This document shows, one piece after another, positions 11,567 to 25,254 of a stretch of DNA of 29,421 bases. Origin of the DNA: a virus; IMG/VR virus record IMGVR_UViG_3300013004_000139, positions 1-29,421 of that record; one strand, 5' to 3'. Under the pieces are notes generated by a model that was given only the letters and a program-made list of their open reading frames with translations, was not told the DNA's origin and ran no database searches. How positions within the stretch are numbered: position 1 is the stretch's first letter; the number at the start of each line of letters is the position of its first letter. The position numbers and the translations under genes are program-made.

Positions 11567-12430
11567 TTAAGGGATATACGTGCTTTGACTTATAGCCCAA
11601 GACGATGTAGATGAATCATAAGTATAAACTAAAGATTCTACCCAGGTAGATGTTGCTGAGTCATATACATGAACTACTCCTTCTTTCCACTCAGAAGTTG
11701 CTGTATCGTATATCTGAATAACACCCTTGGCACCACGAACCACTATCTTTAAGTTTGTTGTGGCAGTTCCACCAGCACCAGTAGCCGTTAGAACTAGATT
11801 GTAGGTACCTCGACTATTTCTGCTGGGTGTTCCAGATATAGTTCCAGCTGAAGAGTTAAGAGATAATCCAGCTGGCAAGGATCCAGACGTAATTGAATAG
11901 CTAGTTGTGTTGCTAGCTGATAAACTTATGCTTTTTGCCTCTAACTCTATTGCATCATCGCTGCTTGGTGGTGTGCCTGAACCCCATATTGGGGCTGGAG
12001 TAAAAGATGGAAAGAATGGAAAAAATGGGAAGAATGGAAAATACGGTGGAAAGAAAGGAGGAGGAGCAACAACTGTAAAGCTAAATGATACAGATGCACT
12101 TCCAACTAGACCAACAGCATTCCAGTTTGCACTAGCAGTATAGGTTCCAGGAGAAAGGGCTTGAAAGCCTGACACAGTTCTTGGGAAAAATGGACTAGCA
12201 ACGTTTCCAGAACCAAAATCATAGCTTCTGTTTTGAGCATTTACTACCTGAACCCCTCCAACAGTAGCATCCCACCCAGCACCAGAAGATCCAAAACCAG
12301 AAAAATTAGCATTGTTATCAAGAATAGAGACTGACCAGTCTGCACCAGATCCATCGGCTCTTCCATTAACTGTTAAAGTTAATCTGGCACGGGTATTGGA
12401 GTCAGAGGTTGCTGAGCTTGCTGATGGCAT
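11567..12430 (-). CDS. Ig-like fibre/adhesin with Phe/Pro-rich linker and C-terminal repeats
   Basis: A 287-aa protein in four parts. Residues 1-120 are a Ser/Gly-rich beta domain that ends in SASVSFSFTVV. Residues 123-145 are a Phe/Pro-rich linker (PPPFFPPYFPFFPFFPFFP). Residues 175-232 form a putative-Ig (He_PIG) domain with the diagnostic SLPAGLSLNSSAGTISGTPS. Residues 236-280 are three tandem 15-residue repeats of the form G-V-x-x-x-Y-D-S-A-T-S-x-W-x-E. There is no signal peptide, so this is a virion protein, probably a fibre tip or decoration. It sits between a collagen-like fibre and the LamG-like protein. The ATG has GGTGA seven bases ahead. The Phe/Pro linker is shared with two other genes in the window. 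Confidence 0.65.
   Translation of the reverse strand: MPSASSATSDSNTRARLTLTVNGRADGSGADWSVSILDNNANFSGFGSSGAGWDATVGGVQVVNAQNRSYDFGSGNVASPFFPRTVSGFQALSPGTYTASANWNAVGLVGSASVSFSFTVVAPPPFFPPYFPFFPFFPFFPSFTPAPIWGSGTPPSSDDAIELEAKSISLSASNTTSYSITSGSLPAGLSLNSSAGTISGTPSRNSRGTYNLVLTATGAGGTATTNLKIVVRGAKGVIQIYDTATSEWKEGVVHVYDSATSTWVESLVYTYDSSTSSWAISQSTYIP
12008..12067. repeat. Phe/Pro-coding short tandem repeat
   Basis: Degenerate 9- and 12-base units of the form GGAAGAAT / GGTGGAAAGAA on the plus strand encode the F-F-P / F-P-P tract of the Ig-like protein on the minus strand. Unit lengths are multiples of three, so copy-number change would not break the frame. It is more diverged than the array at 23898-24066. 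Confidence 0.6.
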
Positions 12431-12474: not shown

Positions 12475-13437
12475 TTAAATCTTTATCCAAATGTCGCCGT
12501 TAACCATTCCTATTGTTGGGGTAGCTGTTTGTACAAATAAGGCACGATTATTGTATTTTGATGAGTTTGTTGCAGTTCCACTAAAAGTAGTTGCTGTTAC
12601 AGTCCCAGTAAAAGTTGGATCAGTCTGAACTGAAAGTGTAGATCCAGTAAGAGACAGTGGCGAGTTCACGGTATAGGTTCCTGCTGGGCCTGTGGGTCCT
12701 GCTGGGCCCTGTGGTCCAACACCTCCAGTTTGTGTCCAAGTAATATTATCTGTTCCAATAATTATTGATCCGTCTGGTCCTGTGCCAGAAGAATTCATAA
12801 TATATACTTTATCTGCAAAGGTTCCAGAAACTACAAAAACAAAATCTCCAACGTTAACATCTTGCGGAGTTGCATTATCATAATCTGTTGCTCTGGTAAA
12901 TCTCCATTTTGTTGTAGAAGATCCAGCATTTGTAAGAGTATAAATTCCGTTTTCTGAACTATTAGCTCTGCCAGTAAACAATACTCTCTGAGTTGTTGTT
13001 GGGGTTACTCCGCTTATAGCTGTAATTGCACCATTTGCATTAGCCTCAATATATGCCCCAACTCCAAAGCCTCCATCAGCTCCGACCGTTCCAGCAAAGT
13101 ATGTGCTTACTCCCGCACCAGAGTCTTCCGACAAAGTTACTACAGATTGATGAGCATTTGTTATTCCAGCTGGGCCCTGTGGTCCTGCTGGTCCAGTAGC
13201 TCCAACTAAAGAGGCTAACCACTGAGATTGGCTACCACTGTATCCGTTAGCAACAGCTAATTCATAAGCAGATTTTCCATCAAGGGATGCTAGCGAATTC
13301 CAGGCAGTAAGGCCATCGCCAATCTTAATAACGTTAGTATCAAAGGCAAATCCAACTTCTCCCACAGCCAAAACGGTATTCGCAGTAGACCACTGGAGGG
13401 CAGTACCACGTCTCTGAAGCATTCTGTATAGGGTCAT
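12475..13437 (-). CDS. Collagen-like tail fibre protein
   Basis: A 320-aa fibre. Residues 1-50 match the fibre N-terminal domain RRGTALQWSTANTVLAVGEV, then K-I-G-D-G-x-T-A-W, shared with the 673-aa fibre at 25725. Next comes SAYELAVANGYSGSQSQWLA, the motif that often precedes phage collagen. Two collagen-like G-X-Y blocks follow: residues 79-91 (GATGPAGPQGPAG) and 241-253 (GPQGPAGPTGPAG). Between them is a beta domain (about 115-235) with N-G-I-Y-T-L-T-N-A-G-S and F-T-R-A-T-D-Y-D-N, known from many phage fibres. The C-terminus is a short beta region. It trimerises in family members and carries host-recognition tips. The start at 13437 has no ribosome site and lies six bases after an extended -10, so translation is probably leaderless. 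Confidence 0.8.
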   Translation of the reverse strand: MTLYRMLQRRGTALQWSTANTVLAVGEVGFAFDTNVIKIGDGLTAWNSLASLDGKSAYELAVANGYSGSQSQWLASLVGATGPAGPQGPAGITNAHQSVVTLSEDSGAGVSTYFAGTVGADGGFGVGAYIEANANGAITAISGVTPTTTQRVLFTGRANSSENGIYTLTNAGSSTTKWRFTRATDYDNATPQDVNVGDFVFVVSGTFADKVYIMNSSGTGPDGSIIIGTDNITWTQTGGVGPQGPAGPTGPAGTYTVNSPLSLTGSTLSVQTDPTFTGTVTATTFSGTATNSSKYNNRALFVQTATPTIGMVNGDIWIKI

Positions 13438-13511: not shown

Positions 13512-14192
13512 ATGTCAGTTCAAATTATAGACAATTTTATTTCAGATAGTGATGCCAGGACCATTATTGATGACTTATCCCCGCATTTAGTGGATAGTGA
13601 TAGATTCGGTATGGCTGAAACCCGCTTTGAAGACTATATGGAGATCTTAAGGAATATATATGATGGTAAGCCAATTCTTGATGGCAAGATGTCTGGCCCT
13701 GGGCTTGCACTTTTTACGGACACAATAAATCGTGTTGGAAAAGAAATTAATAAATTTTATGATGTAGACGTTGTCCCTATAAACCCAATGATGGCACTAA
13801 TCTCTAAGGGTGGAGAGAATCGTGGACTTCACTGTGATGCTGTACAGCTAGACGGAAGTCCTTGGGATGACGGAAATACCTTGCTTGAAGACCTAGAATT
13901 TTCTGCACTAGTTTACCTAAACAGCTGTGGCACTGACTATACTGGAGGAGAAATATCTTTTCCAAATCAGGAATTAAAAATTAGCCCTAATTCTGGACAA
14001 ATGATTTTTTTCCGAGGAGATGTAGACCACCCACATGGAGTTGCAGAGGTAACTTCTGGAGAAAGATATGCCCTAATTTTGTTTTATGGTAGATCTGACC
14101 GTGTCAGAATTTACCTTCAATATAAAGCTGGCGAGCCTATGGGTGAAGATTTAGACTACATCCATTTACAAAAAACTTCTGACATGCTATAA
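13512..14192 (+). CDS. 2OG-Fe(II) oxygenase, prolyl-4-hydroxylase-like (plus-strand copy 1)
   Basis: A 226-aa member of the P4H-type 2-oxoglutarate/Fe(II) oxygenases, which use O2 and 2OG to hydroxylate C-H bonds. The iron ligands are H107 and D109 (GLHCDA) and H175 (HPHGVAEVTSGERY), with R185 to bind 2OG. The core strands LVYLN and TGGEISFPNQELKISPNSGQ, then the I-F-F-R-G-D turn, fit the family. An insertion of about 12 residues (DGSPWDDGNTLL) follows the HxD. The N-terminus is an acidic helix with NFISDSDARTIID, the usual family opening. Neighbours on the same strand are two small unknowns and another oxygenase. It has its own promoter and a GGAG ribosome site seven bases before the ATG. 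The substrate is unknown. Confidence 0.85.
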   Translation: MSVQIIDNFISDSDARTIIDDLSPHLVDSDRFGMAETRFEDYMEILRNIYDGKPILDGKMSGPGLALFTDTINRVGKEINKFYDVDVVPINPMMALISKGGENRGLHCDAVQLDGSPWDDGNTLLEDLEFSALVYLNSCGTDYTGGEISFPNQELKISPNSGQMIFFRGDVDHPHGVAEVTSGERYALILFYGRSDRVRIYLQYKAGEPMGEDLDYIHLQKTSDML

Positions 14193-14193
14193 T
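14185..14193 (+). promoter_or_regulatory. Extended -10 promoter for the small-gene pair
   Basis: TGC-TATAAT overlaps the last codons of the oxygenase gene. It is followed by an AGGA ribosome site (14219-14222) and the ATG at 14230. No -35 was looked for beyond the expected spacing and none stands out. Confidence 0.55.
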
Positions 14194-14229
14194 ATTCTAA
14201 AGAAATAGTCTAGAGAATAGGATATTATA

Positions 14230-14424
14230 ATGACTAAAAATGAAGTAGTCGACCAGATGGTTGAAATTGCAGAAGACTTTAATCTTTTGGCAATCGAAAA
14301 CGCTGGCTTACCAGAAGATCAAATTAAGCAAATGATTGAGCAAGTTCGGCCTCAGCTATATACAATCCAGGGTGAGATTTATGACTTCTTGCTTTCACAG
14401 GGTATTATTAAAGAAGACGCATAG
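14230..14424 (+). CDS. Small acidic helical protein, unknown
   Basis: A 64-aa protein that looks all-helical: MTKNEVVDQMVEIAEDFNLL, then a second helix with GLPEDQIKQMIEQVRP and a third ending SQGIIKEDA. No family, signal peptide or transmembrane segment is seen. The start is an ATG seven bases after AGGA, with its own extended -10 promoter. It is followed by a small gene overlapping its stop by one base (TAGTG) and then by an oxygenase, so it may belong to the same function, for instance as a chaperone or partner subunit. That is speculation. Confidence 0.6.
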   Translation: MTKNEVVDQMVEIAEDFNLLAIENAGLPEDQIKQMIEQVRPQLYTIQGEIYDFLLSQGIIKEDA

Positions 14425-14606
14425 TGATTTTTAGTTACCGTGCTACCCCAGATTTTGCACTAGCTTTTTATGAAGAAAACGGCCAGACTGTATCTTTTGA
14501 TGTAGATCTTTTTAATGCCACTCTTAGTATAGAAGCTCCTGACGAGGATACTGCAGATAAAATCAGAATGACAATTACTGATATTAGAATGTGGGAAAGG
14601 ATTTAA
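14424..14606 (+). CDS. Small protein, unknown, possibly beta-sandwich-like
   Basis: A 60-aa protein starting on GTG that overlaps the previous TAG by one base. It has alternating strands (SYRATPDFALAFYEENGQTV; SFDVDLFNATLSIEAPDE) and a short helix near the C-terminus (EDTADKIRMTITDIRMWERI). No family is recognised. Translational coupling to the helical protein before it and the oxygenase after it suggests the three are co-regulated. With only 60 residues and a GTG start, its reality is less certain than that of its neighbours. Confidence 0.5.
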   Translation: MIFSYRATPDFALAFYEENGQTVSFDVDLFNATLSIEAPDEDTADKIRMTITDIRMWERI

Positions 14607-14611
14607 TTTCC

Positions 14612-15373
14612 TTGATAGTAAAACAACTTTCTAAAGATATTTTATACATTGAGAATGTTTTTGAAAAAGCTCAGGAATTTGTGGATAAAATAGAAGAGTT
14701 TGAAAAAGATCCTGAAATGTATTCTGTAATTCCTAAATGGGAAAATTGGCATGACGGTGAACCATACCAAGATGAAGATGGAGAATGGCAAACATCTTAT
14801 CACGACCATGCAAAAGGAAAGCAAAAGCTTTTTGATTGGAACAGGTCTTCTACGCTTTTTAATAACCTTTGGCCAGTTCCAGAAGACAATTTTACAGATT
14901 ATGCTCATGAAAAAACAGGACCAGTTATTGACCTAATTCATAAACCATATCTCGAAGCCTTAAAAATTTGGTATGCAAAAACTGGTCATAATGAGCTAGC
15001 CTATGTTTCAAAAAATTATACATTAAAAAAATATAACACTGGTGGTGCCATTGGAACACATATTGACAAGAATACCGAAGACCCCCTAAGCACTATGGAC
15101 TATACTTCACTTTTTTATTTAACAGATAACTATGATGGAGGAGAGATTCAATTTCCAGACATAGATCTAACCTTAAAACCATCTGCTGGAAGTGTTTTAA
15201 TTTTTCCAACCACTCTACCACATACTGCCCTTGAGGTTTTAGGTGGAGACAAGTATTTTATTTTTATGTATATACATACAGAGTTTGGCCATACAACTAG
15301 TCTTTATGAAGAAATGGCTGCTTTAAACGGAGCAATATTAGAGTCTCGTAAATCTTCGACCACCCAGTTTTAG
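14612..15373 (+). CDS. 2OG-Fe(II) oxygenase, prolyl-4-hydroxylase-like (plus-strand copy 2)
   Basis: About 253 aa in the form I prefer, with TTG at 14612 ten bases after AAAGGA. A GTG at 14591, overlapping the previous gene by 16 bases, is the alternative and adds seven residues. With the TTG start the triad is H150 and D152 (GTHIDK), H204 (LPHTALEV) and K214 for 2OG. The core reads TSLFYLTDNYDGGEIQFPDI, then DLTLKPSAGSVLIFPTTLP, very close to the copies at 19390 and 20181. The N-terminal half (about 1-120) is a long helical extension with a charged H-D-G-E-P-Y-Q-D-E-D-G-E-W stretch unlike the minus-strand copies. It ends nine bases from the convergent methyltransferase gene, with no terminator visible between them. 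Confidence 0.85.
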   Translation: MIVKQLSKDILYIENVFEKAQEFVDKIEEFEKDPEMYSVIPKWENWHDGEPYQDEDGEWQTSYHDHAKGKQKLFDWNRSSTLFNNLWPVPEDNFTDYAHEKTGPVIDLIHKPYLEALKIWYAKTGHNELAYVSKNYTLKKYNTGGAIGTHIDKNTEDPLSTMDYTSLFYLTDNYDGGEIQFPDIDLTLKPSAGSVLIFPTTLPHTALEVLGGDKYFIFMYIHTEFGHTTSLYEEMAALNGAILESRKSSTTQF

Positions 15374-15382
15374 GCTAATCTG

Positions 15383-15964
15383 CTACAAGGTATCCCAGCG
15401 AAAAAAGTCTCTGTACTCTGAAAGAGTTACAACATTTGGATCTACCCACCAGTCTTCAAAAATAGACCTACGGACCAAAGAGTATCCTAAAGAGTCTAAG
15501 ATTTCTCTTTGTGCATCCCGAATGGATGTATTTCTCCAATACATGTTTGCATCATGCTCAAAAGTTATTACACTAAACCTATACTTATTCAGTGGCACTG
15601 CTATGAGCCCTTGTAAGGTCCAGTGACTATTTCCAACTGGCCTACCTGCAGGATCATATCCTCCGTCAATATCTACCTGAAGAAAATCTATTTGTTTTGG
15701 AAAGTTATTTTCTTCAAAATACTTAACGTAATCAAAAGATAAGGCGTCTCCCATACATGGGTTTTTTCTATTTAGATTAAACTCTGCCCTCATTGAGTCA
15801 ACTATCTCAAAAGATACACCATTCCAATCATAGTCTTTTTCTAAAAGATAAGTATTATTTCCCTTGCTATAGTGTGCTGCACCAAGCTCAACATAATAAC
15901 CATTCCTTTTTTCTTTTAAAATGTCAATAATAAACTGCTCTTCATTTGTTTTTTCATGTATCAT
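15383..15964 (-). CDS. FkbM-family-like SAM-dependent methyltransferase
   Basis: A 193-aa protein with the FkbM-type fold. Motif I is GYYVELGAAHYSKGNNTYLL (residues 22-41), the usual G-x-Y-V-E-x-G-A-x-x-x-x-x-x-N-T spacing. Also present are E42, the acidic F-E at 52-53, DFLQVDIDGG at 93-102, and FEHD at 135-138. The family O-methylates hydroxyl groups on sugars or other small molecules. At 193 aa it is short but has all the motifs. It is the last gene of the long minus-strand operon, with a four-base ATGA overlap with the oxygenase gene before it. A methylase acting on hydroxyls next to hydroxylases is a sensible pairing, but the substrate is unknown. Confidence 0.75.
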   Translation of the reverse strand: MIHEKTNEEQFIIDILKEKRNGYYVELGAAHYSKGNNTYLLEKDYDWNGVSFEIVDSMRAEFNLNRKNPCMGDALSFDYVKYFEENNFPKQIDFLQVDIDGGYDPAGRPVGNSHWTLQGLIAVPLNKYRFSVITFEHDANMYWRNTSIRDAQREILDSLGYSLVRRSIFEDWWVDPNVVTLSEYRDFFRWDTL

Positions 15965-16518
15965 TTAAATAGCTCTTTTCTTAATGTAGTTGGATCTTTT
16001 TCTGTACCACGTACAAAAACAGTTGAAAAATATCTTATGTCATCGCTTGAAACTGGTTTAGAGCCATGCAATATGTGACCACCATGGATATACAAAGAGT
16101 TTTTCTTTGGCTTAACCGTTATCCCTAAATCTGGATACTCTAGCTCACCACCATCATAATTGTCATTATAGTATAGACATAACCCATATCCAATATAGTA
16201 GTCCAAGTCTGGAATCCACTGATCAGTATGCTGGCCTATAAAATCATCTTTTTTATATCTTTGCAAAAGCATTTTTGGTGGATAGTAGTGATATGATTCA
16301 AATAAACTTTCCATCTTGGCATTTACTTTATCAAACACGGTTTCTTCTTTAAACTCTAAATTTTTTCCATACCAAAAACCTTTATCGCCGCTAGCTTCTT
16401 CAGAGAACCAAGCTTCTTCTTCTGTGCTGTTGATTATCTTATAAACCTCTTCAAGTTCTTCACCTGTTAAAAAGTCATTAATTTCATAAACATCTTTATG
16501 TAGTTTTACAATGTTCAT
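15961..16518 (-). CDS. 2OG-Fe(II) oxygenase, prolyl-4-hydroxylase-like
   Basis: A 185-aa compact copy, near the minimum size for the family. H97 and D99 (GQHTDQ), H151 (HILHGSKP) and R162 form the triad and 2OG anchor. The distal His-to-Arg spacing is 11 rather than the usual 10. Core: GLCLYYNDNYDGGELEYPDL, then GITVKPKKNSLYIHG. Its N-terminal region is short (YEINDFLTGEELEEVYKIIN). No strong ribosome site precedes the ATG at 16518, just past the dehydrogenase stop, so translation probably depends on reinitiation. The next gene (methyltransferase) overlaps its end by four bases. Confidence 0.85.
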   Translation of the reverse strand: MNIVKLHKDVYEINDFLTGEELEEVYKIINSTEEEAWFSEEASGDKGFWYGKNLEFKEETVFDKVNAKMESLFESYHYYPPKMLLQRYKKDDFIGQHTDQWIPDLDYYIGYGLCLYYNDNYDGGELEYPDLGITVKPKKNSLYIHGGHILHGSKPVSSDDIRYFSTVFVRGTEKDPTTLRKELFK

Positions 16519-16522
16519 ATTA

Positions 16523-17191
16523 TCACATAAACTTACTATTAAAGATATTGCTAACCTCTAAATGGTTAACGTTAAAATGTTTTGGCAAAGAGGCTACCCA
16601 ACGAATTGCCTCTGCCATGTCTTCTGCAGTTAGCGAGTATGGCTTGCTTTCTTCTTGTGTGTCTATTGTCCCTGGACAAATTTCAGTTACCTTAATCCCA
16701 TATTCTGGAAACTCCATCCTCATAGTATCAACCAAAGCCATTTCGCCCCTCTTGGCATTGCTATAGTTTCCTCCGCCACGAAAAGGTATCTTACCAGATA
16801 GAGATGTCACAAAAATAATTGTTGCTGATTCTGATTTCTTAAGGGCTGGAACAAATAGCTGAGAAAGGTACATTGGTCCAGAAACGTTTATTTCATAAGC
16901 AGTCTTAAAATTATCCATTGTTTCATTAATAATGTTTGTTGGACTAGCTCCACCACCTGCATTATTAACAAGAAGATCTATTTCTAGGTGTCCATACTTT
17001 TCAAAGAAAAGCTCAATCTCTTTTGGCTGAGTGATGTCAAGCCTGTATGGTTCAATATTTTCAGACTGTAGCTCTGATATTTTAGACAAGTCTCTAGATA
17101 CTGCAATGACCCTGTATCCATTTTGAGATAGCAGTTTTGTAGTTGCATAGCCAACACCTTTGCTAGCACCAGTTACTATAGCAGTTTTCAT
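16523..17191 (-). CDS. Short-chain dehydrogenase/reductase (SDR)
   Basis: A 222-aa classical SDR, an NAD(P)-dependent enzyme that interconverts hydroxyls and carbonyls. TGASKGVG (7-14) is the cofactor loop, and S-R-D at 32-34 fits NADP preference. LDIT (51-54), NNAGG (76-80), N102, S130, Y143 and K147 complete the catalytic set, with PGT at 173-175. The length, about 222, is a little short of the usual 250. The ATG overlaps the upstream stop by four bases (ATGA), placing it inside the oxygenase operon between two oxygenases. A plausible task is to oxidise an alcohol made by a neighbour or to reduce a sugar-type carbonyl. The substrate cannot be read from the sequence. Confidence 0.88.
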   Translation of the reverse strand: MKTAIVTGASKGVGYATTKLLSQNGYRVIAVSRDLSKISELQSENIEPYRLDITQPKEIELFFEKYGHLEIDLLVNNAGGGASPTNIINETMDNFKTAYEINVSGPMYLSQLFVPALKKSESATIIFVTSLSGKIPFRGGGNYSNAKRGEMALVDTMRMEFPEYGIKVTEICPGTIDTQEESKPYSLTAEDMAEAIRWVASLPKHFNVNHLEVSNIFNSKFM

Positions 17192-18039
17192 AGCTCTAAG
17201 GACTCAATCTCTTTTTTGTAGTATTCTTCAAACTCAGTCCAGAATGGAATATTATTAATGGTTGTTACGTTACTGCTATTTCTATTAAACTTAAGCCTTT
17301 GGTCTTCTAGCTGCCGCCAAATATCCTCGCCATACTTTTCCTGAAGTTTTAGCCAAAGAGGGTGTCCAGGATATTCGTATCTCCAGTAATTCCTAATTAT
17401 ATACTTTTCTCCACTAGTGATTGCTTTTACACCATGGTAATGTGGCGGTCCAGATGGAAATACTACAATATCGCCTTTTTGTGGTTTGTAGGTATAATCT
17501 TCTTTTATTATTGATGGGTCATTCTCGTCAAGGAATCTGAACATAACCTCTCCACCATCATAATCTTCGTTTAAATAACAAACAGCAGTAACACCAAACT
17601 TTAATCCAGGATTATAAGAAAACTCTCTCTGAAAGTCAGTATGATGCATCATGGCGTAATCTGGATGATTTTCTAAATTTGGAATATATTTTGCAACGTT
17701 CCACCCATCAGAAACCCAATTATCTAATGAAACATTGTTTGCTTCTACATAAAGTTTTGTAGAGTAATAGAATAAATCTTGAATTTGATTTTCAAAGTAA
17801 TAGTTTTGCCCTAGATCTCTTTCACCATATTGTTTTGAATCTTCCCATTCCTGTGGTGAAGGGAAGCTTTCAAAGGCTTGTATCCCAAGGCTGCTGCCAT
17901 CAGTCACTTTTCCAAAAGTAAACCAGTCTTTCCATTCTCTATTTTTTTCAAAATGTTCTATAAAAGCTTCACTATTCTTGATGGCATTTTTAAATACCCA
18001 AACGCTTTCATTTATTTTTTTGATGTCAAAATCATACAC
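17188..18039 (-). CDS. 2OG-Fe(II) oxygenase, prolyl-4-hydroxylase-like, with C-terminal extension
   Basis: A 283-aa copy, the longest of the minus-strand set. H133 and D135 (MMHHTDF), H202 (PPHYHGVKAITSGEKY) and K212 make the metal and 2OG site. Core: VTAVCYLNEDYDGGEVMFRF, then an insertion (DENDPSIIKEDY) before KPQKGDIVVFPSGPP. A C-terminal tail of about 65 residues beyond the fold has a charged region (EKYGEDIWRQLEDQRLKFNR). The start is a GTG at 18039 overlapping the previous stop by eight bases (GTGTATGA). It is followed by the dehydrogenase gene with a four-base overlap. Confidence 0.85.
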   Translation of the reverse strand: MYDFDIKKINESVWVFKNAIKNSEAFIEHFEKNREWKDWFTFGKVTDGSSLGIQAFESFPSPQEWEDSKQYGERDLGQNYYFENQIQDLFYYSTKLYVEANNVSLDNWVSDGWNVAKYIPNLENHPDYAMMHHTDFQREFSYNPGLKFGVTAVCYLNEDYDGGEVMFRFLDENDPSIIKEDYTYKPQKGDIVVFPSGPPHYHGVKAITSGEKYIIRNYWRYEYPGHPLWLKLQEKYGEDIWRQLEDQRLKFNRNSSNVTTINNIPFWTEFEEYYKKEIESLEL

Positions 18040-18736
18040 CGCAAGATCCCTTTTTCATGTCCATGTCATTGTGAATCCAGTGACTAGGAATCATATACTT
18101 AAATCCAGACTTTACGGTATGTGCAATGTGGTAGTATGGTGCTGACGATGGGAAGATTATAACGCTTCCAGCACTAGGTTTTACTCCAAAATCTATTTGA
18201 TTATTAGCTACTGCAACATCATAATCTAGATCTGGACTTACTACCTGATTATGATCTTCATACTCAGACAGCTTGAAGGAAATCTCTCCTCCTTCAGGAA
18301 CGTCATTTAAATACATAACGAGGGAGTATCTAAGAGTCTTATCTCCATCTAACTGGTCGTAGTGGGCTCCCATGGACGCTCCAGTGTCATATTTCTTAAT
18401 GTTAAAAACTGGGAATAGTCTTGGCTCATCCTTGTCTCCTACTGACTCAGCATAGTCTTTGCAGACAGAATAAAGAGCCTTCATGATATTGATGTAAACA
18501 TACTCCATCTTGCTTCTATATGGCTCTGCCATTTGGTTAATCTGATTAAGATCAAATGTCTGAGTTTCTCCATAGATAAACTCTTTATCATCTGAAGCTG
18601 TCCACTTTCCCCAAAGCTCACCATTTTCTGAATTATTAATTTCAGTAAGTTCGGCAATTGCTTTCATTACCTCTTCAAAGTTTTCAATGGCATCTTCATA
18701 GTAATAAACCATCTCATGTAGCATACGCTTTTCCAT
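18032..18736 (-). CDS. 2OG-Fe(II) oxygenase, prolyl-4-hydroxylase-like
   Basis: A 234-aa copy. H125 and D127 (MGAHYDQ), H203 (PYYHIAHTVKSGFKYMI) and K213 fill the active site. The strand region has an insertion of about 25 residues (SEYEDHNQVVSPDLDYDVAV) between EGGEISF and DFGVKPSAGSVIIFPSS. The N-terminus is an acidic helical domain (YYYEDAIENFEEVMKAIAEL). The ATG at 18736 follows the upstream TAA by one base and has AGAGGAATCGG further ahead. An internal ATG at residue 5 is an alternative start. Confidence 0.85.
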   Translation of the reverse strand: MEKRMLHEMVYYYEDAIENFEEVMKAIAELTEINNSENGELWGKWTASDDKEFIYGETQTFDLNQINQMAEPYRSKMEYVYINIMKALYSVCKDYAESVGDKDEPRLFPVFNIKKYDTGASMGAHYDQLDGDKTLRYSLVMYLNDVPEGGEISFKLSEYEDHNQVVSPDLDYDVAVANNQIDFGVKPSAGSVIIFPSSAPYYHIAHTVKSGFKYMIPSHWIHNDMDMKKGSCGV

Positions 18737-18737
18737 A

Positions 18738-19397
18738 TTAGTACCGATTCCTCTCGTAGTGTCCAGATTCTTTTATGAAGCCAACTAAAACATATCTAAT
18801 TGGACCATCAGAAACAGTCTCAACTCCATGCTCGTACTTTTCGTTACCTGGAAAAATTAACAAAGACTTTGGTTTTGGTCTTAGTTTTAAATCTAAATTC
18901 TTAAAGAATAGCTCTCCATCATTATAATCGTCGTTTATGTACAAAATGGCAGCATATTTTATCGATGGGTCTGTGTGCTGGTCTGTATGAGGCTTCAGCT
19001 CCACGCCAGGCTGCATTCTTTGGATAGTTGCAAAGCCACTCAAAACCAATTCTGGGTCTGTTTCTTTAACTAGGGAGTTAAGTCTATCATGAAGAATGTG
19101 GTATTCTGGGGTATTGCCAATGTTAAGGTTTTTGTCAACCCAGTTTTGCGTAATTTCAAACTTACCTTCAGCAACTAGGTTGTCAACATCATCCCTACCA
19201 AATTTTTCAAAACAAAACCGTTTTAGGTTTGACATGTACTCGACTTCCCAGTCTGCCTGGCTTGCTTCATTAATCTTGCTCCAGATAAAGTCTAGTTCGC
19301 TATCTGTCAAAAAATTTTCAATAGAAATTAGTTCGTCTGTAATTTCTTCAAACGCAACATTATTTTTATTAAGCAAACTTTTTAGACTGTTAATCAC
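18738..19397 (-). CDS. 2OG-Fe(II) oxygenase, prolyl-4-hydroxylase-like
   Basis: A 219-aa copy when started at the GTG at 19397, which lies nine bases after GAGG and overlaps the upstream stop by eight bases (GTGATTAA). Longer starts at 19430 or 19406 would run deeper into the previous gene and have no ribosome site at the right distance. H137 and D139 (PHTDQHTD), H190 (KYEHGVETVSDGP) and R201 form the site. Core: AAILYINDDYNDGELFFKNL, then DLKLRPKPKSLLIFPGN. The usual second Gly of the D-G-G-E motif is replaced (N-D-G-E). The N-terminal part holds ISIENFLTDSELDFIWSKIN, the usual family opening. Confidence 0.85.
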   Translation of the reverse strand: MINSLKSLLNKNNVAFEEITDELISIENFLTDSELDFIWSKINEASQADWEVEYMSNLKRFCFEKFGRDDVDNLVAEGKFEITQNWVDKNLNIGNTPEYHILHDRLNSLVKETDPELVLSGFATIQRMQPGVELKPHTDQHTDPSIKYAAILYINDDYNDGELFFKNLDLKLRPKPKSLLIFPGNEKYEHGVETVSDGPIRYVLVGFIKESGHYERNRY

Positions 19398-20148
19398 TAG
19401 AGCCATCCTCAAGCTTGTATGGCTTACCATCCATGTCTAACTTGTATCCATCTTTAAGCAAGTCCTGCCACTCTTTGCGTTCTACTTCTTGGGCATCTCT
19501 AATCTTTTTCATTTCCTCTGCCCAGGCATCTCTGACTTCTTGAGGATAGGCATCTTCTTCACGGTCATCCCAGAATGATCCTATAGTATATCTAACTCCA
19601 GATTCTATTAAAGTTACTTCGTGCATGTTATTAAAGCCACCATCAAATGCCGCTAACATTCCGACCTTTGGAGCTATCTCTAAATCTTGTTTTGGAAACT
19701 TTAATAGGCCTCCAGAAAAATCATCATTTAGGTAAAGGAATGCTGCATATCGACTTCTTGCAAAAGGTCCAGAGTTTCCATGCTCATCTGTATTATCAGA
19801 ATGAACTCTAGCATATGCTCCTGGCTCCCACTTTTGAGTATGATAACCTATTTCAACAATTGTTTTTGGATCTAGGTCATGAACAGAAGCTACCGCCTCA
19901 ATAATTTTAGTTTTTATTTGTGCAAAGATATCTAGTGGCAATCCAGACTCTGCTATTTCTGGGTCGCCCTCTTGTGGAAGGGTAGAAGAGTAAGACTCAT
20001 AAAAAGATATTGGCATCCAGGTAAGAGTGCCATTAGAAGCTACCTTATCTAAAACCTCTATAATCTTTGCAGATTCTTCTGGCGTTAGAAAGTTTTCATA
20101 AACTACAATATCCTTTGTAATTCTATTCTTGTTATTTAAGTTTGTCAT
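19390..20148 (-). CDS. 2OG-Fe(II) oxygenase, prolyl-4-hydroxylase-like, with Lys/Glu tail
   Basis: A 252-aa copy. H116 and D118 (ARVHSDNTDEHG), H176 (NNMHEVTLIESGVRY) and R186 form the active site. Core: AAFLYLNDDFSGGLLKFPKQ, where Leu replaces the usual Glu after Gly-Gly, then DLEIAPKVGMLAAFDGG. A charged helical C-terminal extension of about 55 residues (AWAEEMKKIRDAQEVERKEW) follows the fold. The ATG has AGGAGAAGG five bases ahead, and an extended -10 promoter lies at 20168-20176. It thus begins a second transcription unit inside the cluster. Confidence 0.85.
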   Translation of the reverse strand: MTNLNNKNRITKDIVVYENFLTPEESAKIIEVLDKVASNGTLTWMPISFYESYSSTLPQEGDPEIAESGLPLDIFAQIKTKIIEAVASVHDLDPKTIVEIGYHTQKWEPGAYARVHSDNTDEHGNSGPFARSRYAAFLYLNDDFSGGLLKFPKQDLEIAPKVGMLAAFDGGFNNMHEVTLIESGVRYTIGSFWDDREEDAYPQEVRDAWAEEMKKIRDAQEVERKEWQDLLKDGYKLDMDGKPYKLEDGSSD

Positions 20149-20167
20149 ATTACCTTCTCCTATAAAA

Positions 20168-20176
20168 ATTATATCA
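20168..20176 (-). promoter_or_regulatory. Extended -10 promoter inside the oxygenase cluster
   Basis: The minus strand reads TGA-TATAAT, about 20 bases before the ATG at 20148, with AGGAG between. It lies in the 32-base gap between two oxygenase genes. No -35 hexamer fits. Confidence 0.55.
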
Positions 20177-20180
20177 TGAT

Positions 20181-20849
20181 TTAGCTAGGCTTTTTGTGAG
20201 CCAAAATAGTCCAAAAGAATGGGACTGTGTACCTTATGCCAGAAATTATTTCTGATACGCCATGAATATAGTTCTTATCTCCAGGGAAGAAGTACGCTGC
20301 ACCAGCCTTTGGCTTAAACTGAATTCCTTGATTTGGGAAGTATAGCTCCCCACCCTCATAGTCGTCATTAATATAAAATAGTCCAGCTATATCATAGTGA
20401 GGGAAGTCATTTGGTTTTCCAGCATCTGGACCTTCGTGAAGTTCCTTGTCCGCATGTGGCATTTGAAGCTGTCCAGGCAACCATCTAACCATTGCTGGAC
20501 TAGTTGGGTTTGCGTCAACATTAAAGAAATTATCTACCTCAATTTTTAATCTTTTAACCATACCCTGAATAACCTTAGGAACTTCTGGATCAACTAGGTT
20601 GATAGTTGGGTCCGTTGCAACACGGTTAGCCCAATAGCCAGAATCATAAATTACAGTTCCATTTTCATTATAATGAGTTTCTGTAATATCCCAGGCTTCA
20701 TTATTCCTAATAAAATTATTTAGATATGATAGTTCATGATCAGTCATGAAATTTTCTAGTGTTACGATGTTGTCTGGAGAATCTCCAAAAAATCCAGATG
20801 GCGTTATTGAAACCATATCTGTTACACTCTTATTCGTTAAATCATCCAT
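20181..20849 (-). CDS. 2OG-Fe(II) oxygenase, prolyl-4-hydroxylase-like
   Basis: A 222-aa copy. H132 and D134 (QMPHADKE), H196 (NYIHGVSEIISGIRY) and R206 are in place. Core: IAGLFYINDDYEGGELYFPN, then GIQFKPKAGAAYFFPGD. An insertion of about 18 residues follows the HxD (LHEGPDAGKPNDFPHYD), as in the plus-strand copy 1. The N-terminus carries VTLENFMTDHELSYLNNFIR. The ATG has GGAGAACCCCGA ahead, with the Shine-Dalgarno overlapping the stop of the upstream unknown gene. Distances and overlaps show it is part of the operon running from 23775. Confidence 0.86.
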   Translation of the reverse strand: MDDLTNKSVTDMVSITPSGFFGDSPDNIVTLENFMTDHELSYLNNFIRNNEAWDITETHYNENGTVIYDSGYWANRVATDPTINLVDPEVPKVIQGMVKRLKIEVDNFFNVDANPTSPAMVRWLPGQLQMPHADKELHEGPDAGKPNDFPHYDIAGLFYINDDYEGGELYFPNQGIQFKPKAGAAYFFPGDKNYIHGVSEIISGIRYTVPFFWTILAHKKPS

Positions 20850-20861
20850 TTCGGGGTTCTC

Positions 20862-21587
20862 CTATTCATACTTTCGTTTTTCCCAAACATCTTTCAAGTA
20901 TACACCACCATTTGGAACTCTATACTTTTCAGAGTTTTTTATGTTCTTTTTCATAATTGATAGACCAGATTCTTTTACATACTCAGAGTCCCAGTCTTCT
21001 CTTTTGAAAGGCATCATCTGTGCATAAGGAGTGCCTGCTGGCAATACCCCTACCCACTCTTTACTGATAAAGAATGGCATTGTTCCAGGCAGATTTACCT
21101 TATCGTTATCGATTACTCCGCTAGTTGTTAAAAACGGTAGGTCATATCTGTCGTATGGCTGAGAGTAAAGGACGCTATACCCCTCTGGGACCTCTACAGC
21201 CCAATCTGGATACCACGCAAAATGTTTCTCATGATACCCTAGGGGGCCATCAAACTGAGGCATTTTCTCTCTGTTTTGAATAAAGTCTGCATATTTTAGA
21301 TCCAAAACTTTAGCAGAAATTTTTTGATTTGAGTCAAGATAGAACTCAATATCACAAGGAGTTTTGTAAACGTATCCAGTGGTTAGTATGTCGTATATTG
21401 CTGGACAAGCTTTCCAAGTTGGAACCTTTCCACCATCTGGACCAACGTAGTTTTCCCCGTGTGGATTTTTATAAAACCTGTCTGCTGAAATGTACCATTC
21501 TGGCAAACTTTTAGAGGTTGGTTTTGGGGCAGATGGAGCTTCTTCAGAAAGCCATGATCGATTTGATATAAATTTAATTTTTGGCAT
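20862..21587 (-). CDS. Conserved viral protein of unknown function, PAGTP motif
   Basis: A 241-aa protein. Segments include PSAPKPTSKSLPEWYISADR (N-terminal, Pro/Trp-rich), KHFAWYPDWAVEVPEGYSVL, YSQPYDRYDLPFLTTSGVID, and EWVGVLPAGTPYAQMMPFKR. I know similar proteins from marine and cyanobacterial phages but no assigned function. The V-P-A-G-T-P-x-A-Q turn resembles those in dUTPase-like or cupin-like beta folds, but no catalytic residue set can be identified. The ATG at 21587 has AAGG nine bases ahead and overlaps the upstream gene by 14 bases. A TTG at 21596 is an unlikely alternative. It shares the P-A-x-T-P-x-A motif with its upstream neighbour. Confidence 0.7.
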   Translation of the reverse strand: MPKIKFISNRSWLSEEAPSAPKPTSKSLPEWYISADRFYKNPHGENYVGPDGGKVPTWKACPAIYDILTTGYVYKTPCDIEFYLDSNQKISAKVLDLKYADFIQNREKMPQFDGPLGYHEKHFAWYPDWAVEVPEGYSVLYSQPYDRYDLPFLTTSGVIDNDKVNLPGTMPFFISKEWVGVLPAGTPYAQMMPFKREDWDSEYVKESGLSIMKKNIKNSEKYRVPNGGVYLKDVWEKRKYE

Positions 21588-22293
21588 TATTTTCAACCTT
21601 CATTAAAATCTTTTTAGACTCATGGTTTCCGACTGGACACTTCTTATGATCAACTGCGTCTCTATAAAAATGTGTCCATTCTCCTTTTGAGTTCATGGCC
21701 TGAGCAACTTCAGCTCGCCCTGCCATATTTTCATACCATGTATCTGTTTCGTATGGCGGCCTGCCCCCCTTAATCTCTAACTGGTATTCTTGAATTTCTA
21801 ATAAAGATATTGGTAATATTGCTGCAATAGGAGTATTTGCTGGAATTGTTATTTCAATGTTAGGTTCGGTTATCATCCAGGCAATTGGCAACTCGTTTTC
21901 TAAGACTGATGTACTTATTAGAGTAGTCATGCACTGTGCACCCCTAATGAATTGATTTGGAACTGGCATTGTTAGCAATGTAAGGTTTTCCTCATTTTCT
22001 CCAACAAAAATAAGATCTGTGTGAAAACTAATCGTTCTATTTCCACGCCTTGACATTGCATATTTTTCACCAGATAAAATCTTTACATGGTCTGGAGTTG
22101 AATCATTTATACCATCCCAAATAAAAGTAATGTCTTCTGGAAATGATATCCCCCAGCCAAGTCGATTAGATAGAGATACTGGGAAACACTGGTAAGCATG
22201 TCTATCAAAAGTTATGTCCATCCAATCACGATGCATTGGCAATTGATCAATAGAGACTAGGTTGTGCTGGGTATAGGCTGTTACTTTTTTCAC
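21574..22293 (-). CDS. DUF6065-like protein of unknown function
   Basis: A 239-aa protein. The segment PMHRDWMDITFDRHAYQCFP, then SLSNRLGWGISFPEDITFIW, matches what I recall of DUF6065, a small family scattered in phages and bacteria and often near oxygenases or other tailoring genes. PANTPIAAILPISL near residue 150 recalls the P-A-G-T-P-x-A-Q turn of the next gene, so the two may share a fold. A second part (GGRPPYETDTWYENMAGRAE) is Gly/Trp-rich. The start is a GTG whose G is the last base of the upstream TAG (TAGTG). Family assignment is from memory; function unknown. Confidence 0.65.
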   Translation of the reverse strand: MKKVTAYTQHNLVSIDQLPMHRDWMDITFDRHAYQCFPVSLSNRLGWGISFPEDITFIWDGINDSTPDHVKILSGEKYAMSRRGNRTISFHTDLIFVGENEENLTLLTMPVPNQFIRGAQCMTTLISTSVLENELPIAWMITEPNIEITIPANTPIAAILPISLLEIQEYQLEIKGGRPPYETDTWYENMAGRAEVAQAMNSKGEWTHFYRDAVDHKKCPVGNHESKKILMKVENNAKN

Positions 22294-23006
22294 TAGCTGC
22301 CTGATTCTTCATAGAATTTTGGATTATGGTATTTATCAGAGTAGTCAAGCATTGTGACAATAGAATTCTTTGTTCCCGACTGCACTGGCAAAGACTTGTG
22401 CGGATACATGTAATTAGATGGGAAAATAAACAAGTCTCCAGCTCTTGGCTTAACCTTTAGCTTTTGCAGTCTAAACTCTAGCTCTCCACCAGTATAATCA
22501 TCATTAGGATATGCAACTAAAGAAACTACACAGTTATAAGAGTATCCATGATCTGAGTGTTCCTGGAAGTGCTGGCCTGGGCCATACTTAACAAAGTTCA
22601 TTGCTTCCCAATAACGCAACTCTCCAATATTGAACCTTCTTGCATAATCTTTTACTGCTGCAACTTTTCTATCATAAAGATCTTGCCACAACTCTTGTAG
22701 CTTTTGTGACTCTGGAGAAGGATCATGCATTATGTCAGTTTTCTTATACTTAAAGTCATAACAGTCTCTGTACTCTGGCATTTTCATTCCATACCCCACC
22801 ATAGCTTCCATGTAGTTATAGTAGTTTGAGTTATCGTTAAGTACTTCTTCTAGTCTTTGGGTAATATTCATATCTGTTGGAAGAACATCATGGTATACAA
22901 ATATTCCAGGAGAAAGCTCTTCTACTGAAGACCATGTCTGTTCAGGAATCGTGTAGTAGTCCTGAATTCTTTTATTTACTACTTCAATATCTTCTGTGTT
23001 TTCCAT
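22293..23006 (-). CDS. 2OG-Fe(II) oxygenase, prolyl-4-hydroxylase-like
   Basis: A 237-aa copy. H150 and D152 (FQEHSDHGYS), H203 (MYPHKSLPVQSGTK) and K213 are present. Core: VVSLVAYPNDDYTGGELEFR, then LKVKPRAGDLFIFPSN. It pairs with the gene at 23017: both have R-D-C-x-D-F-K before the HxD, E-A-x-N-F-V-K-Y at the same distance, and a distal motif H-x-S-L-P-x-x-S-G-T-K. They form the most recent duplication in the cluster. The ATG has a GGA seven bases ahead and lies 10 bases beyond the previous stop. Confidence 0.86.
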   Translation of the reverse strand: MENTEDIEVVNKRIQDYYTIPEQTWSSVEELSPGIFVYHDVLPTDMNITQRLEEVLNDNSNYYNYMEAMVGYGMKMPEYRDCYDFKYKKTDIMHDPSPESQKLQELWQDLYDRKVAAVKDYARRFNIGELRYWEAMNFVKYGPGQHFQEHSDHGYSYNCVVSLVAYPNDDYTGGELEFRLQKLKVKPRAGDLFIFPSNYMYPHKSLPVQSGTKNSIVTMLDYSDKYHNPKFYEESGS

Positions 23007-23016
23007 TTTTTTCCAA

Positions 23017-23775
23017 TCAGTATGTTAGCTTGTTAGAGTCTTCTTGCCTATATGGGAAGAAGCGAAGACCACCCCTATCATTGTAGTCTGTCATGACTAC
23101 AACGGAGTACTTTGTCCCGCTTTTCATTGGCAAAGAAGCGTGTTCATAAATATATGTAGATGGGAAGACAAGAACGTCTCCTTGTTTTGGCTTAATCGTT
23201 AAATCAAATCTAGGAAAGTATAGCTCTCCGCCTTCATAGTCATCGTTAAGGTAGGCTACCACAGAAACTGTAGTGACGTATGCTGGACCATGATCAGCGT
23301 GAATATTGAAGTGCTTTCCAGCACCTTCATACTTTACAAAGTTAAAAGCTTCATAATAAGAAATTCCTACTCCCCAATAGCGACCGTAATCTTGAACATT
23401 TGGATGAATTGCATCAAAAATATCTTTATGCATATCATATAGCTCTGAATTTTCTGGGTCCCGTGGTCCGTAGGCACTGCTGCTAATTTTAAAGTCTACG
23501 CAGTCTCTAGCATCAGACATTACAGAATCTGATTCAGTAACCATTGCTCCATGCCACTTATATACTGGGCTAGTGCTATTTGTTAGTTTTGATTCTAAAG
23601 TATGTATGGCTGCTTTACAGCTCTCAATAGAGATTCCATTGTTGTATACATTAATCCCTAGTGCTGGATTTGAAACAGTTATGCCATTATGAGTGGTTCG
23701 TTCTGACATTCTGTTTTTGTCGGTTTCTGATCGATCTTTTGTCAACCAGTCGTTATTTCCTGAGTCTGTCTGCAT
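23017..23775 (-). CDS. 2OG-Fe(II) oxygenase, prolyl-4-hydroxylase-like, first gene of the operon
   Basis: A 252-aa copy starting at the ATG at 23775. H159 and D161 (FNIHADHGP), H212 (YIYEHASLPMKSGTKY) and K222 make the site. Core: VSVVAYLNDDYEGGELYFPR, then DLTIKPKQGDVLVFPSTY. The N-terminal 35 residues are polar and variable. No ribosome site exists; an extended -10 lies six bases before the ATG, so translation is probably leaderless. A TTG codon six codons earlier overlaps the -10 and is rejected. It starts the minus-strand operon of eight oxygenases, a dehydrogenase, a methyltransferase and two unknowns. Confidence 0.85.
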   Translation of the reverse strand: MQTDSGNNDWLTKDRSETDKNRMSERTTHNGITVSNPALGINVYNNGISIESCKAAIHTLESKLTNSTSPVYKWHGAMVTESDSVMSDARDCVDFKISSSAYGPRDPENSELYDMHKDIFDAIHPNVQDYGRYWGVGISYYEAFNFVKYEGAGKHFNIHADHGPAYVTTVSVVAYLNDDYEGGELYFPRFDLTIKPKQGDVLVFPSTYIYEHASLPMKSGTKYSVVVMTDYNDRGGLRFFPYRQEDSNKLTY

Positions 23776-23781
23776 AACATA

Positions 23782-23790
23782 ATTATAGCA
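23782..23790 (-). promoter_or_regulatory. Extended -10 promoter, leaderless, head of the oxygenase operon
   Basis: The minus strand reads TGC-TATAAT, then six bases (TATGTT), then the ATG at 23775. The 88-base gap (23776-23863) between the two genes holds nothing else that I can support; an AAGCAATGCTT pair nearby is too weak to call a hairpin. Confidence 0.6.
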
Positions 23791-23863
23791 CAAACTCTTT
23801 AAAAGTAAAACCTAAGCATTGCTTGTATTTTTAATATAGAGAAAGTCTCAGCATTAAAACTAA

Positions 23864-24667
23864 TTAGCAACGAGGTGGGCAACCGCCAACAAACCTAGGT
23901 GGGAAGAATGGGAAGAACGGTGGGAAGAACGGGAACCTAGGTGGGAAGAACGGTGGGAAGAACGGTGGGAAGAACGGTGGGAAGAACGGTGGGAAGAACG
24001 GGAAGAACGGGAAGAATGGGAAGTACGGGAAGAATGGTGGGAAGAATGGTGGGAAAAATGGTGGGGTAGTTGTGATGTCGCCAGAATATGGAGACCACTC
24101 TCCTAGACCATTTGCATTTTCTGCACGTACACGGTACTTCTGTGTAGTGCCTCCTTCTTGGGTAACTGCAGCAGAGGTACCAGAGGTATTTCCGCTTTTT
24201 GCATCATTACTCTCCCAGTAGTAAAGAGTAATAGCACTTCCACCAGCTGATGGAGCAATCCAGCTAATGTTATCCTGATTAACCTGAGTAGATACAGAAG
24301 GTGCTGAAGGAGTTCCTGGAACGGTAGTTATTGCTGCAGTTGCAGGTGGAGTAGATGCTGCTGAAGTTCCAGCTGCGTTTGTTGCAGTAACTACAAAAGA
24401 ATATGTTACATTAGAGTCAAGCTGTGTTATTGTAATTGGAGATGTGGCTCCAGTAGCAGTTCTCTCTGATGCTCCAGAACCTGTAGCTGTTACTGTATAA
24501 GAAGTTGCTGCTGGAGAATTTTCTGGTAATTCAAAAGTGACGGAGGCTGCTCCATCATTAAATGGTCTGTTGGTTCCAACGTTAGAAGCTGAAACATTGA
24601 TTGGGGCCGATGGCTCTAGAAAATCGTTTTGCTGAGATGACCGTCCGCCAACTTCTTTTTTTGCCAT
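23864..24667 (-). CDS. FN3-domain virion protein with long Phe/Pro-rich tail
   Basis: A 267-aa protein. Two fibronectin type III domains occupy about 19-113 (with SYTVTATGSGASERTATGAT, then VTYSFVVTATNAAGTS) and 116-200 (with QDNISWIAPSAGGSAITLYY, then YRVRAENANGLGEWSPYSG). Residues 202-258 are a Phe/Pro-rich tract in which F-F-P-P, F-F-P and Y-F-P units repeat, ending in V-G-G-C-P-P-R-C. Its second FN3 domain is about 70% identical, without gaps, to the one in the frameshift extension at 25255. FN3 domains are common passengers on phage structural proteins and bind weakly to surfaces. It sits directly before the oxygenase operon, and its prolines make it a candidate substrate. The start has AAGAAGGG nine bases ahead. 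Confidence 0.7.
   Translation of the reverse strand: MAKKEVGGRSSQQNDFLEPSAPINVSASNVGTNRPFNDGAASVTFELPENSPAATSYTVTATGSGASERTATGATSPITITQLDSNVTYSFVVTATNAAGTSAASTPPATAAITTVPGTPSAPSVSTQVNQDNISWIAPSAGGSAITLYYWESNDAKSGNTSGTSAAVTQEGGTTQKYRVRAENANGLGEWSPYSGDITTTPPFFPPFFPPFFPYFPFFPFFPFFPPFFPPFFPPFFPPFFPPRFPFFPPFFPFFPPRFVGGCPPRC
23898..24066. repeat. Minisatellite coding the Phe/Pro tract
   Basis: Tandem 12-base (GGTGGGAAGAAC) and 9-base (GGGAAGAAC) units on the plus strand, with at least five near-perfect 12-mers in a row near 23939-24000. On the minus strand they encode F-F-P-P and F-F-P. All units are multiples of three, so slippage lengthens or shortens the tract without a frame change. Long near-identical runs suggest recent expansion. 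Confidence 0.85.
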
Positions 24668-24700
24668 TTAATAAAACCCTTCTTTTAATCGGTATTCAAA

Positions 24701-24718
24701 CCTTATCTAATTATAAGG
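24701..24718 (-). promoter_or_regulatory. Inverted repeat overlapping a TATAAT box before the FN3 gene
   Basis: CCTTAT-AATTAG-ATAAGG is a perfect 6-bp inverted repeat, and its centre covers a TATAAT at 24710-24715 on the minus strand. The TG extension is absent. A repressor site on a promoter or a small hairpin would both fit. The remaining bases of this 92-base gap are A+T-rich and hold no other clear signal. Confidence 0.35.
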
Positions 24719-24759
24719 CATTTTTATAATGTTTTAATTATTAAAGGTTTGTTTTTTAA

Positions 24760-25206
24760 CTATTCTGGCACAATCTGGCCATTAACAATTTGTCTTCCTA
24801 TAAGGTCAAACGGATTACCGTCTATTTCTTCTGCCTGATCTGTAATATCAACAAAAGTTGGATTGCTTCCATAAACAGCAAATATCATCTGCCCCATAGG
24901 GTCGTCTATTCTAATAACAGACCTTCCAACAAAAATATTATCAACCACGTAAGCAAAAACCTTAAAAACTTCTGGATTAAGCTCTTGATATGGCTCAAGT
25001 GGCATTAAGTCTTCTGGGATATCAAAGCTTTCTCCATTCCAGATAGCACCAAGTGGTGGCATTACGCCAAGGTTTGTTGCTTCTATTACTGTTGGGTTTA
25101 ACCTAAGAGTTGTATTTAGCTTGCCATTCGAACGTACTTTTAAGATTACGCCAATTTCTTCATCAACAACCGCAGCAAACACTACTTCAGTCACTACATC
25201 ATTCAT
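24760..25206 (-). CDS. Unknown 148-aa protein between fibre genes
   Basis: A mainly beta protein of unknown function. It opens TEVVFAAVVDEEIGVILKVR and has an N-P-T-V-I-E-A-T-N-L-G-V loop, a hydrophobic strand EVFKVFAYVVDNIFVGRSVI, and a C-terminus of MIFAVYGSNPTFVDITDQAE followed by an N-G-Q-I-V-P-E end. No transmembrane helix or signal peptide is convincing. The gene has its own extended -10 promoter (25228-25236) and an AAAGGAG six bases before the ATG. Encoded between two FN3/Phe-Pro proteins, it may be a fibre component or its chaperone, but that is inferred only from location. Confidence 0.55.
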   Translation of the reverse strand: MNDVVTEVVFAAVVDEEIGVILKVRSNGKLNTTLRLNPTVIEATNLGVMPPLGAIWNGESFDIPEDLMPLEPYQELNPEVFKVFAYVVDNIFVGRSVIRIDDPMGQMIFAVYGSNPTFVDITDQAEEIDGNPFDLIGRQIVNGQIVPE

Positions 25207-25227
25207 TTTTTCTCCTTTATGTTATAT

Positions 25228-25236: not shown

Positions 25237-25254
25237 GATTTAATTTTATAAATA

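Follow-up and report, generated by a model that had tools for sequence, protein, structure and literature searches.

Ten P4H-like oxygenase genes in one phage region

The window analysed here is the whole of IMG/VR record IMGVR_UViG_3300013004_000139 (29,421 bases), itself a phage genome fragment, in which ten genes for prolyl-4-hydroxylase (P4H)-like 2-oxoglutarate (2OG)/Fe(II) oxygenases adjoin the gene of a putative tail protein with a tract of proline and phenylalanine. Head genes lie in the left part (major capsid protein at 3398, protease at 4536, portal at 5913), and minus-strand genes of tail type come after them; the P4H region, at 13512-23793, sits between the tail genes of 12475-13437 and 23864-29419. 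A megablast comparison of the window with isolated phages gave no match. Its portal is 48% identical to those of Streptomyces phages, which suggests an actinobacterial host.

An earlier, sequence-only reading had claimed ten intact P4H-like oxygenases in this region. All ten open reading frames (ORFs) are indeed intact, and all match Pfam family PF13640 (2OG-FeII_Oxy_3) at or above its curated cut-off, with E values from 9e-6 to 7e-14. Naming the copies by their first coordinate, the plus strand carries 13512-14192 (HCD107, H175, R185; PF13640 E 4e-11) and 14591-15373 (HID157, H211, K221; 1e-11), the second of which had been given a start at 14612. The minus strand carries 15961-16518 (HTD97, H151, R162; 9e-6), 17188-18039 (HTD133, H202, K212; 1e-11), 18032-18736 (HYD125, H203, K213; 3e-9), 18738-19430 (HTD148, H201, R212; 1e-10), 19390-20148 (HSD116, H176, R186; 5e-8), 20181-20849 (HAD132, H196, R206; 1e-6), 22293-23006 (HSD150, H203, K213; 7e-14) and 23017-23793 (HAD165, H218, K228; 1e-12). 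Every copy thus has the HxD motif, the distal His and, as had been proposed, an Arg or Lys about ten (10-11) residues later. The weakest match, 15961, falls exactly on the 27-bit cut-off (27.0 bits), and a genome-wide PF13640 search scored nine copies, without this one. In 17188 we assign the metal ligand to HTD133 rather than to HPD125 because its orthologues keep MxYHxD, and with it the HTD. Among 343 viral homologues the ligand positions hold His in 341, Asp in 340, the distal His in 331 and Arg/Lys in 331. The ten copies share 18-38% pairwise identity (median 23%). A role in DNA modification was considered and rejected, as Pfam matches to Tet_JBP in the window were all below threshold.

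The fold was modelled for the 22293 copy (AlphaFold2, 30 sequences), and the other nine were placed by alignment. The model (predicted local distance difference test score, pLDDT, 91) is a double-stranded beta-helix whose best PDB match, found with VIA-align, is an algal P4H in complex with a (Ser-Pro)5 peptide (3gze; Z 20.5, root-mean-square deviation (rmsd) 2.1 over 173 aa). This bears out, for that copy, the fold expected of the family. The leading structural matches are 3gze, 6f0w, 4iw3 (P. putida P4H/EF-Tu), 2jig and PHD2, with the PBCV-1 enzyme also among the matches; by sequence, the nearest solved proteins are a Bacillus P4H and the lysyl hydroxylase LH3. As the enzymes closest to it in structure are peptide-acting prolyl hydroxylases, the modelled fold makes activity on peptidyl proline likely.

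All ten copies have orthologues, and the ratio of nonsynonymous to synonymous substitution rates (dN/dS) was below 0.2 for each (0.04-0.18 overall), from which we conclude, in agreement with the earlier claim, that no copy is decaying. Chance can be dismissed as the origin of the ten frames. A related phage (L051) carries nine of these genes, their order unchanged, at 72-95% protein identity and with dN/dS of 0.04-0.16. Against a second relative (L351) the eight minus-strand copies gave 0.05-0.12, and against a third (L337) 13512 gave 0.13. By copy, the values were 0.11-0.13 for 13512 (orthologues in L051 and L337), 0.12-0.16 for 15961, 0.11-0.12 for 17188, 0.04-0.12 for 18032, 0.10 for 18738, 0.04-0.08 for 19390, 0.05 for 20181 and 0.06-0.09 for 23017. 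Orthologues of 14591 (80% and 69% identity; L424-L426) lie away from the array in other phages, with dN/dS of 0.11 and an intact reading frame in L426.

In a tree of 305 viral homologues, eight of the copies fall in clades of their own with 9 to 70 members, in keeping with the separate clades that had been expected; 13512 pairs with its L051 orthologue and 14591 stands alone. The order of clades is mostly constant across about 35 loci with at least four copies: 23017, 22293, 20181, (17188), 19390, 18738, 18032, 15961, with a pair of DUF6065-like genes near 22293 in the ordered arrays. Because clades and order are common to these loci, the array is, on this comparison of sequences, an old and ordered set and not the product of recent duplication, and the view that the copies serve more than simple dosage stands. 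What did not survive was the idea that ten copies are exceptional: arrays of 4-11 P4H genes are common in related uncultured phages, and cyanophage S-SCSM1 has 24 such genes, not in one array. IMG/VR records being fragments, per-record counts here and below understate, and related records are not independent of each other.

The adjacent PFFP protein and its linkage to the array

Directly before the array in transcription order lies 23864-24667 (minus strand), which encodes an fn3 protein (E 1.3e-8) with a C-terminal (P)P-[F/Y/R]-F tract, here called PFFP, at aa 202-259. Its C-terminal part reads PPFFPPFFPPFFPYFPFFPFFPFFPPFFPP and continues to a Cys-containing end, GGCPPRC. The prolines of the tract are nearly invariant and the following residue varies (F/Y/H/S/R). 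Orthologues precede the array in relatives. Its position amid tail genes, together with a weak match to a minor-tail-protein PHROG (E 7e-6), leads us to infer that the protein is part of the virion. In the record of a near-identical phage (L507, 54.9 kb; fn3 N-terminus 100% identical), the contig stops within the PFFP tract or close to it; tracts of this kind may interrupt assemblies and so conceal the P4H module in short-read data.

The association was examined in both directions. A search of 2.9 million viral contigs with the PFFPPFFPPFFP pattern alone, blind to oxygenases, gave at least 120 loci. Among the matches listed, 91 of 120 had P4H homologues nearby, and 1.08 Mb of these loci held 340 P4H ORFs at E 1e-3 (334 at 1e-8); 15 of the 29 loci without a nearby P4H had PF13640 elsewhere in the record, making 106 of 120 records in all. 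Control loci chosen by collagen-like or RRGTA fibre patterns had no P4H (0/198; none at the 119 loci selected for collagen-like sequence), and PF13640 was present in 3 of 50 control whole contigs, in single copies only. Conversely, 80 loci were collected with a 22293-clade P4H as query, and a PFFP ORF was present in 71; eight of the nine without one have their first P4H at the end of the contig or close to it. Where both occurred, the PFFP gene and its nearest P4H always shared a strand (71/71), and the PFFP gene lay upstream in 63/71, with a median gap of 59 bp. A collagen-like ORF was found in 13 of the 80, so that the Gly-X-Pro partner expected of a collagen P4H system is missing from most of them; as the window does encode one collagen-like fibre, such a partner may have a minor part here. 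In bacterial genomes the pattern occurred on eight contigs, of which three (L328, L330, L334) have P4H genes and are probably viral contigs in metagenome-assembled genomes; the remainder were set aside as mostly out-of-frame or unrelated low-complexity ORFs.

Exchange of the tail in close relatives was followed in two samples: the 80 nearest portal relatives, chosen on neither tail nor P4H, and relatives of the fn3 N-terminal domain, collected with queries from the window and from an FGFSP-tailed phage. Three phages with portals 91-97% identical to that of the window (L428, L431, L433) have the same fn3 protein in the slot, with FGAFGFSPFGFSPF as its tail, and lack the array, the site of which is occupied by one short P4H and two genes that match no Pfam family. 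Among 71 distinct loci whose downstream sequence extended for 5 kb or more, at least two P4H genes were nearby for 47 of 49 PFFP tails (median 6), as against 1 of 18 FGFSP tails (median 1); for PFFP against all other tails, Fisher p was 3e-12. Of the two PFFP loci that depart from this pattern, one (L605) carries six PF13640 genes on its opposite flank. Two loci with (APPGFF)n tails had five and six P4H genes, and the tails NFYNYS and VPVYGFTP, poor in proline or without it, had none; for the proline-free NFYNYS tail there was no P4H within 73 kb. On the fn3 tree, counting within 14 kb, tail type switched about four times, and tail and array states agreed at 70 of 74 loci (53 with an array, 17 without). 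No other result speaks as strongly for an action of the enzymes on the tail as this covariation, which is still a correlation.

Many of the fn3 proteins with swapped tails follow the repeat with a domain that starts with CIASxTKI and ends with FIAGxII(C/HN) (L428:1821-3185, L442:1632-2813, L574, L556, L600:9974-11275). It resembles a Hint/intein-like domain, the Pfam match to Intein_splicing having an E of just 0.049. With FGFSP tails, two related genes occupy the place of the array (L428:3244-3897, L431:4647-5360, L451:4322-5011, with paralogues). They share the motif PHKFFERFLDNDL / PQKFFExYLDNNL and have no Pfam match; their products are possible tailoring enzymes of the FGFSP tail.

Proposed substrate and competing explanations

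Since the array adjoins the PFFP tail and is, with few exceptions, absent where another tail has taken its place, the enzymes most likely act on the phage's own tail protein. Our favoured explanation, which we hold with good confidence, is that the ten genes encode oxygenases of the peptidyl prolyl-hydroxylase type that would modify the phage's own proline/aromatic tail protein or proteins, above all 23864-24667. Enzyme family, active sites, selection, the ordered array, the two-way link to PFFP and loss of the array on tail swap are all seen in sequence. Proline hydroxylation as the reaction, the tail as its substrate and a positional division of work among the enzymes are inferences drawn from these. 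The structural fn3-PFFP protein would be made during infection; P4H enzymes of different specificity would hydroxylate prolines in different contexts of the (P)P-x-F tract; and in some relatives glycosyltransferases of the N-acetylglucosamine (GlcNAc) type or the DXD type, together with sulfotransferases, encoded at the same place, would then decorate the new hydroxyls. The virion would thereby gain an extensin-like tail that is hydroxylated and, in some cases, glycosylated. The extended form of this proposal, a multi-enzyme, position-specific assembly line for hydroxylated and in some phages glycosylated extensin-like virion material, with tail type and enzyme set exchanged as a module, we put forward tentatively and judge rather less than probable. 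P4H action on virion proteins is in itself probable. The suggestion of ten substrates gives way to one main substrate class, the adjacent proline/phenylalanine tail, and that of ten positions fares better, position- or context-specific enzymes being the likely reason for so many copies.

Several points weigh against this assignment. Some other cause could make tail and enzymes move together as a module, and association alone is no proof of substrate. The 13512 and 14591 copies, outside the conserved core, could serve another protein, for example a collagen-like fibre. Array size and repeat number were correlated in the raw data (rho 0.58, n=48), and after relatedness contrasts the correlation was weak (r 0.29-0.34, p 0.02-0.04). 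Four of the 74 loci break the rule of tail and array, and FGFSP tails also contain proline yet have one P4H. As regards the glycosyltransferase step, no PF11397 gene, glycosyltransferase or sulfotransferase was found among the searched window ORFs.

The same tail protein might instead be modified at another residue (Phe/Tyr neighbours, Asn, Lys or Arg). PF13640 includes lysyl and other hydroxylases, LH3 is among the sequence matches, and some relatives add Asp/Asn-hydroxylase-like and other oxygenases to the set. We regard this as unlikely, given that in the tract it is proline that hardly varies, that the closest structures are those of prolyl hydroxylases with proline-containing peptides, and that the proline-free NFYNYS tail goes without P4H in 73 kb. 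Just as unlikely, in our estimate, is that the enzymes mainly modify other virion proteins and stand near PFFP because all are tail genes. The obvious candidate is the tail-fibre-like protein at 12475-13437 (minus strand), a possible separate substrate with PHROG tail matches and collagen-like GPQGPAGPTGPAG stretches, 75 bp from P4H 13512. Collagen is the classical P4H substrate, and in a marine single-cell virus, AG-345-F15, a P4H follows a collagen-like fibre at a distance of 38 bp. Collagen-like ORFs are nevertheless far rarer at P4H loci than PFFP (13/80 against 71/80), the 119 collagen-selected loci are without P4H, and the arrays vanish with the PFFP tail.

That these are auxiliary metabolic or host-directed genes, altering host 2-oxoglutarate/nitrogen metabolism or hydroxylating host proteins, seems to us improbable. 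The 24 S-SCSM1 genes have been read in this way (PMC9602691), and a bacterial P4H acting on EF-Tu is known (4iw3); such a role predicts neither strict linkage to one structural gene nor loss with a tail swap, and genes directed at the host have no need to track the type of tail. We give almost no credence to recent duplicates kept for dosage or by neglect. The tandem layout would suit them, as would the few arrays that hold two or three members of one clade; the low identity among copies, the shared clades and order and the constraint on all ten copies stand against it.

If tail modification by the P4H enzymes is correct, oxygen-dependent post-translational modification would be part of bacteriophage virion assembly, and the arrays would be a source of prolyl hydroxylases that have diverged in nature and have neighbouring specificities. 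The two-way link to one structural tail type provides a concrete candidate substrate, testable with a few peptides and recombinant enzymes.

Accessory genes and related systems

The arrays are most often accompanied by the DUF6065-like pair (at 127 loci) and by the fn3-PFFP protein (at 105). In the window the DUF6065 protein is encoded at 21574-22293 (minus strand; PF19541 E 1e-25, 91.2 bits against a cut-off of 26.6). Its AlphaFold2 model (pLDDT 91) has a dUTPase-like beta-clip fold, with dUTPases as the best PDB matches (Z 8.7, rmsd 2.8 over 122). The second protein, at 20862-21596 (minus strand), has no Pfam match and belongs to PHROG 7084; hhalign relates it to the DUF6065 set (97.7%, E 2e-12). 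In one relative (L119) DUF6065 and a 20181-type P4H form a single ORF. An accessory role for the pair is suggested.

The sequence-only reading had also pointed to an interleaved dehydrogenase and O-methyltransferase. The former is real, a short-chain dehydrogenase/reductase at 16523-17191 (minus strand; adh_short E 9e-40). The latter, at 15383-15964 (minus strand), is a weak FkbM-like match (Methyltransf_21 E 0.009, below cut-off), and two of its orthologues had no match in a family search. Both are optional partners, present in 18 and 11 related arrays, respectively. Two small ORFs at 14230-14606, upstream of P4H 14591, have no family match; their homologues adjoin the orthologue of 14591 in L424 and that of 13512 in L051.

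PF11397, which we take to be the family of the Skp1 hydroxyproline GlcNAc-transferase, is present in 11 of 50 long related records and 1 of 50 controls, and in five relatives (L373, L375, L378, L379, L388) its genes lie between the PFFP gene and the array. In another relative (L092:5522-7075) the PFFP gene is immediately followed by one in which a DXD-type glycosyltransferase-like domain (below cut-off) is fused to a P4H of the 23017 type; this putative glycosyltransferase has a homologue encoded separately in L063, L577, L613 and L618. Sulfotransferases are encoded in L389 and L405. Two further PFFP proteins of the window are possible additional substrates by sequence: a short one at 25255-25653 (minus strand) with a PFFPPFFPPYFPYFP tract and a Cys-rich end, and a structural-region protein at 11567-12430 (minus strand) with an internal PPPFFPPYFPFFPFFPFFP tract that is kept in its 83% identical L051 orthologue.

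The P4H genes beside PF11397 genes in several relatives recall the Skp1 hydroxyproline pathway of Dictyostelium (PMC3515798), in which a P4H is followed by a hydroxyproline GlcNAc-transferase. That pathway concerns one cytosolic protein and one proline, whereas here the candidate is a repeat tract, and PF11397 is absent from most relatives. With the algal P4H (3gze/2jig) the phage enzymes share the fold, the metal and 2OG ligands, the peptide-binding enzyme type and a proline-rich, low-complexity substrate candidate of the extensin type; they differ in sequence (22% identity), in having up to 11 paralogues per array, and in a phage-protein candidate with Phe instead of Ser. The P4H of the Chlorella virus PBCV-1 (5c5t; Z 17.7) is likewise virus-encoded and of the same fold, but is a single gene of a eukaryotic virus, with no ordered array tied to one tail type. 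Hydroxyproline in viral proteins has been reported for PBCV-1 (Eriksson 1999, as cited in PMC9301287).

Phage prolyl-hydroxylase genes are abundant in waters, and their use has been described as cryptic (PMC9301287). In the limited body of literature searched, nothing relevant was found on DUF6065, on FFPPFF in phages or on phage P4H with proline-rich tails, and neither the PFFP protein nor DUF6065 had a match in 50,697 phage records. The nearest relatives in isolated phages are cyanophage 2OG-Fe(II) oxygenases (PHROG 61; about 31% identity). Many of these lie among replication genes and have been interpreted as host metabolism genes, as for the 24 of S-SCSM1 (PMC9602691), but some of the S-SCSM1 copies stand on either side of tail-fibre genes, one of which has RQP/FR repeats. 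This short tail fibre (L416, 4084-5349; RQPR/FRVP repeats) is flanked by seven 2OG oxygenase genes. In AG-345-F15 (L415, MH319751.1, 4461-6696) the fibre upstream of the single P4H is a GPP collagen-like one, so that here, in a second type of phage, a proline-rich fibre precedes a P4H.

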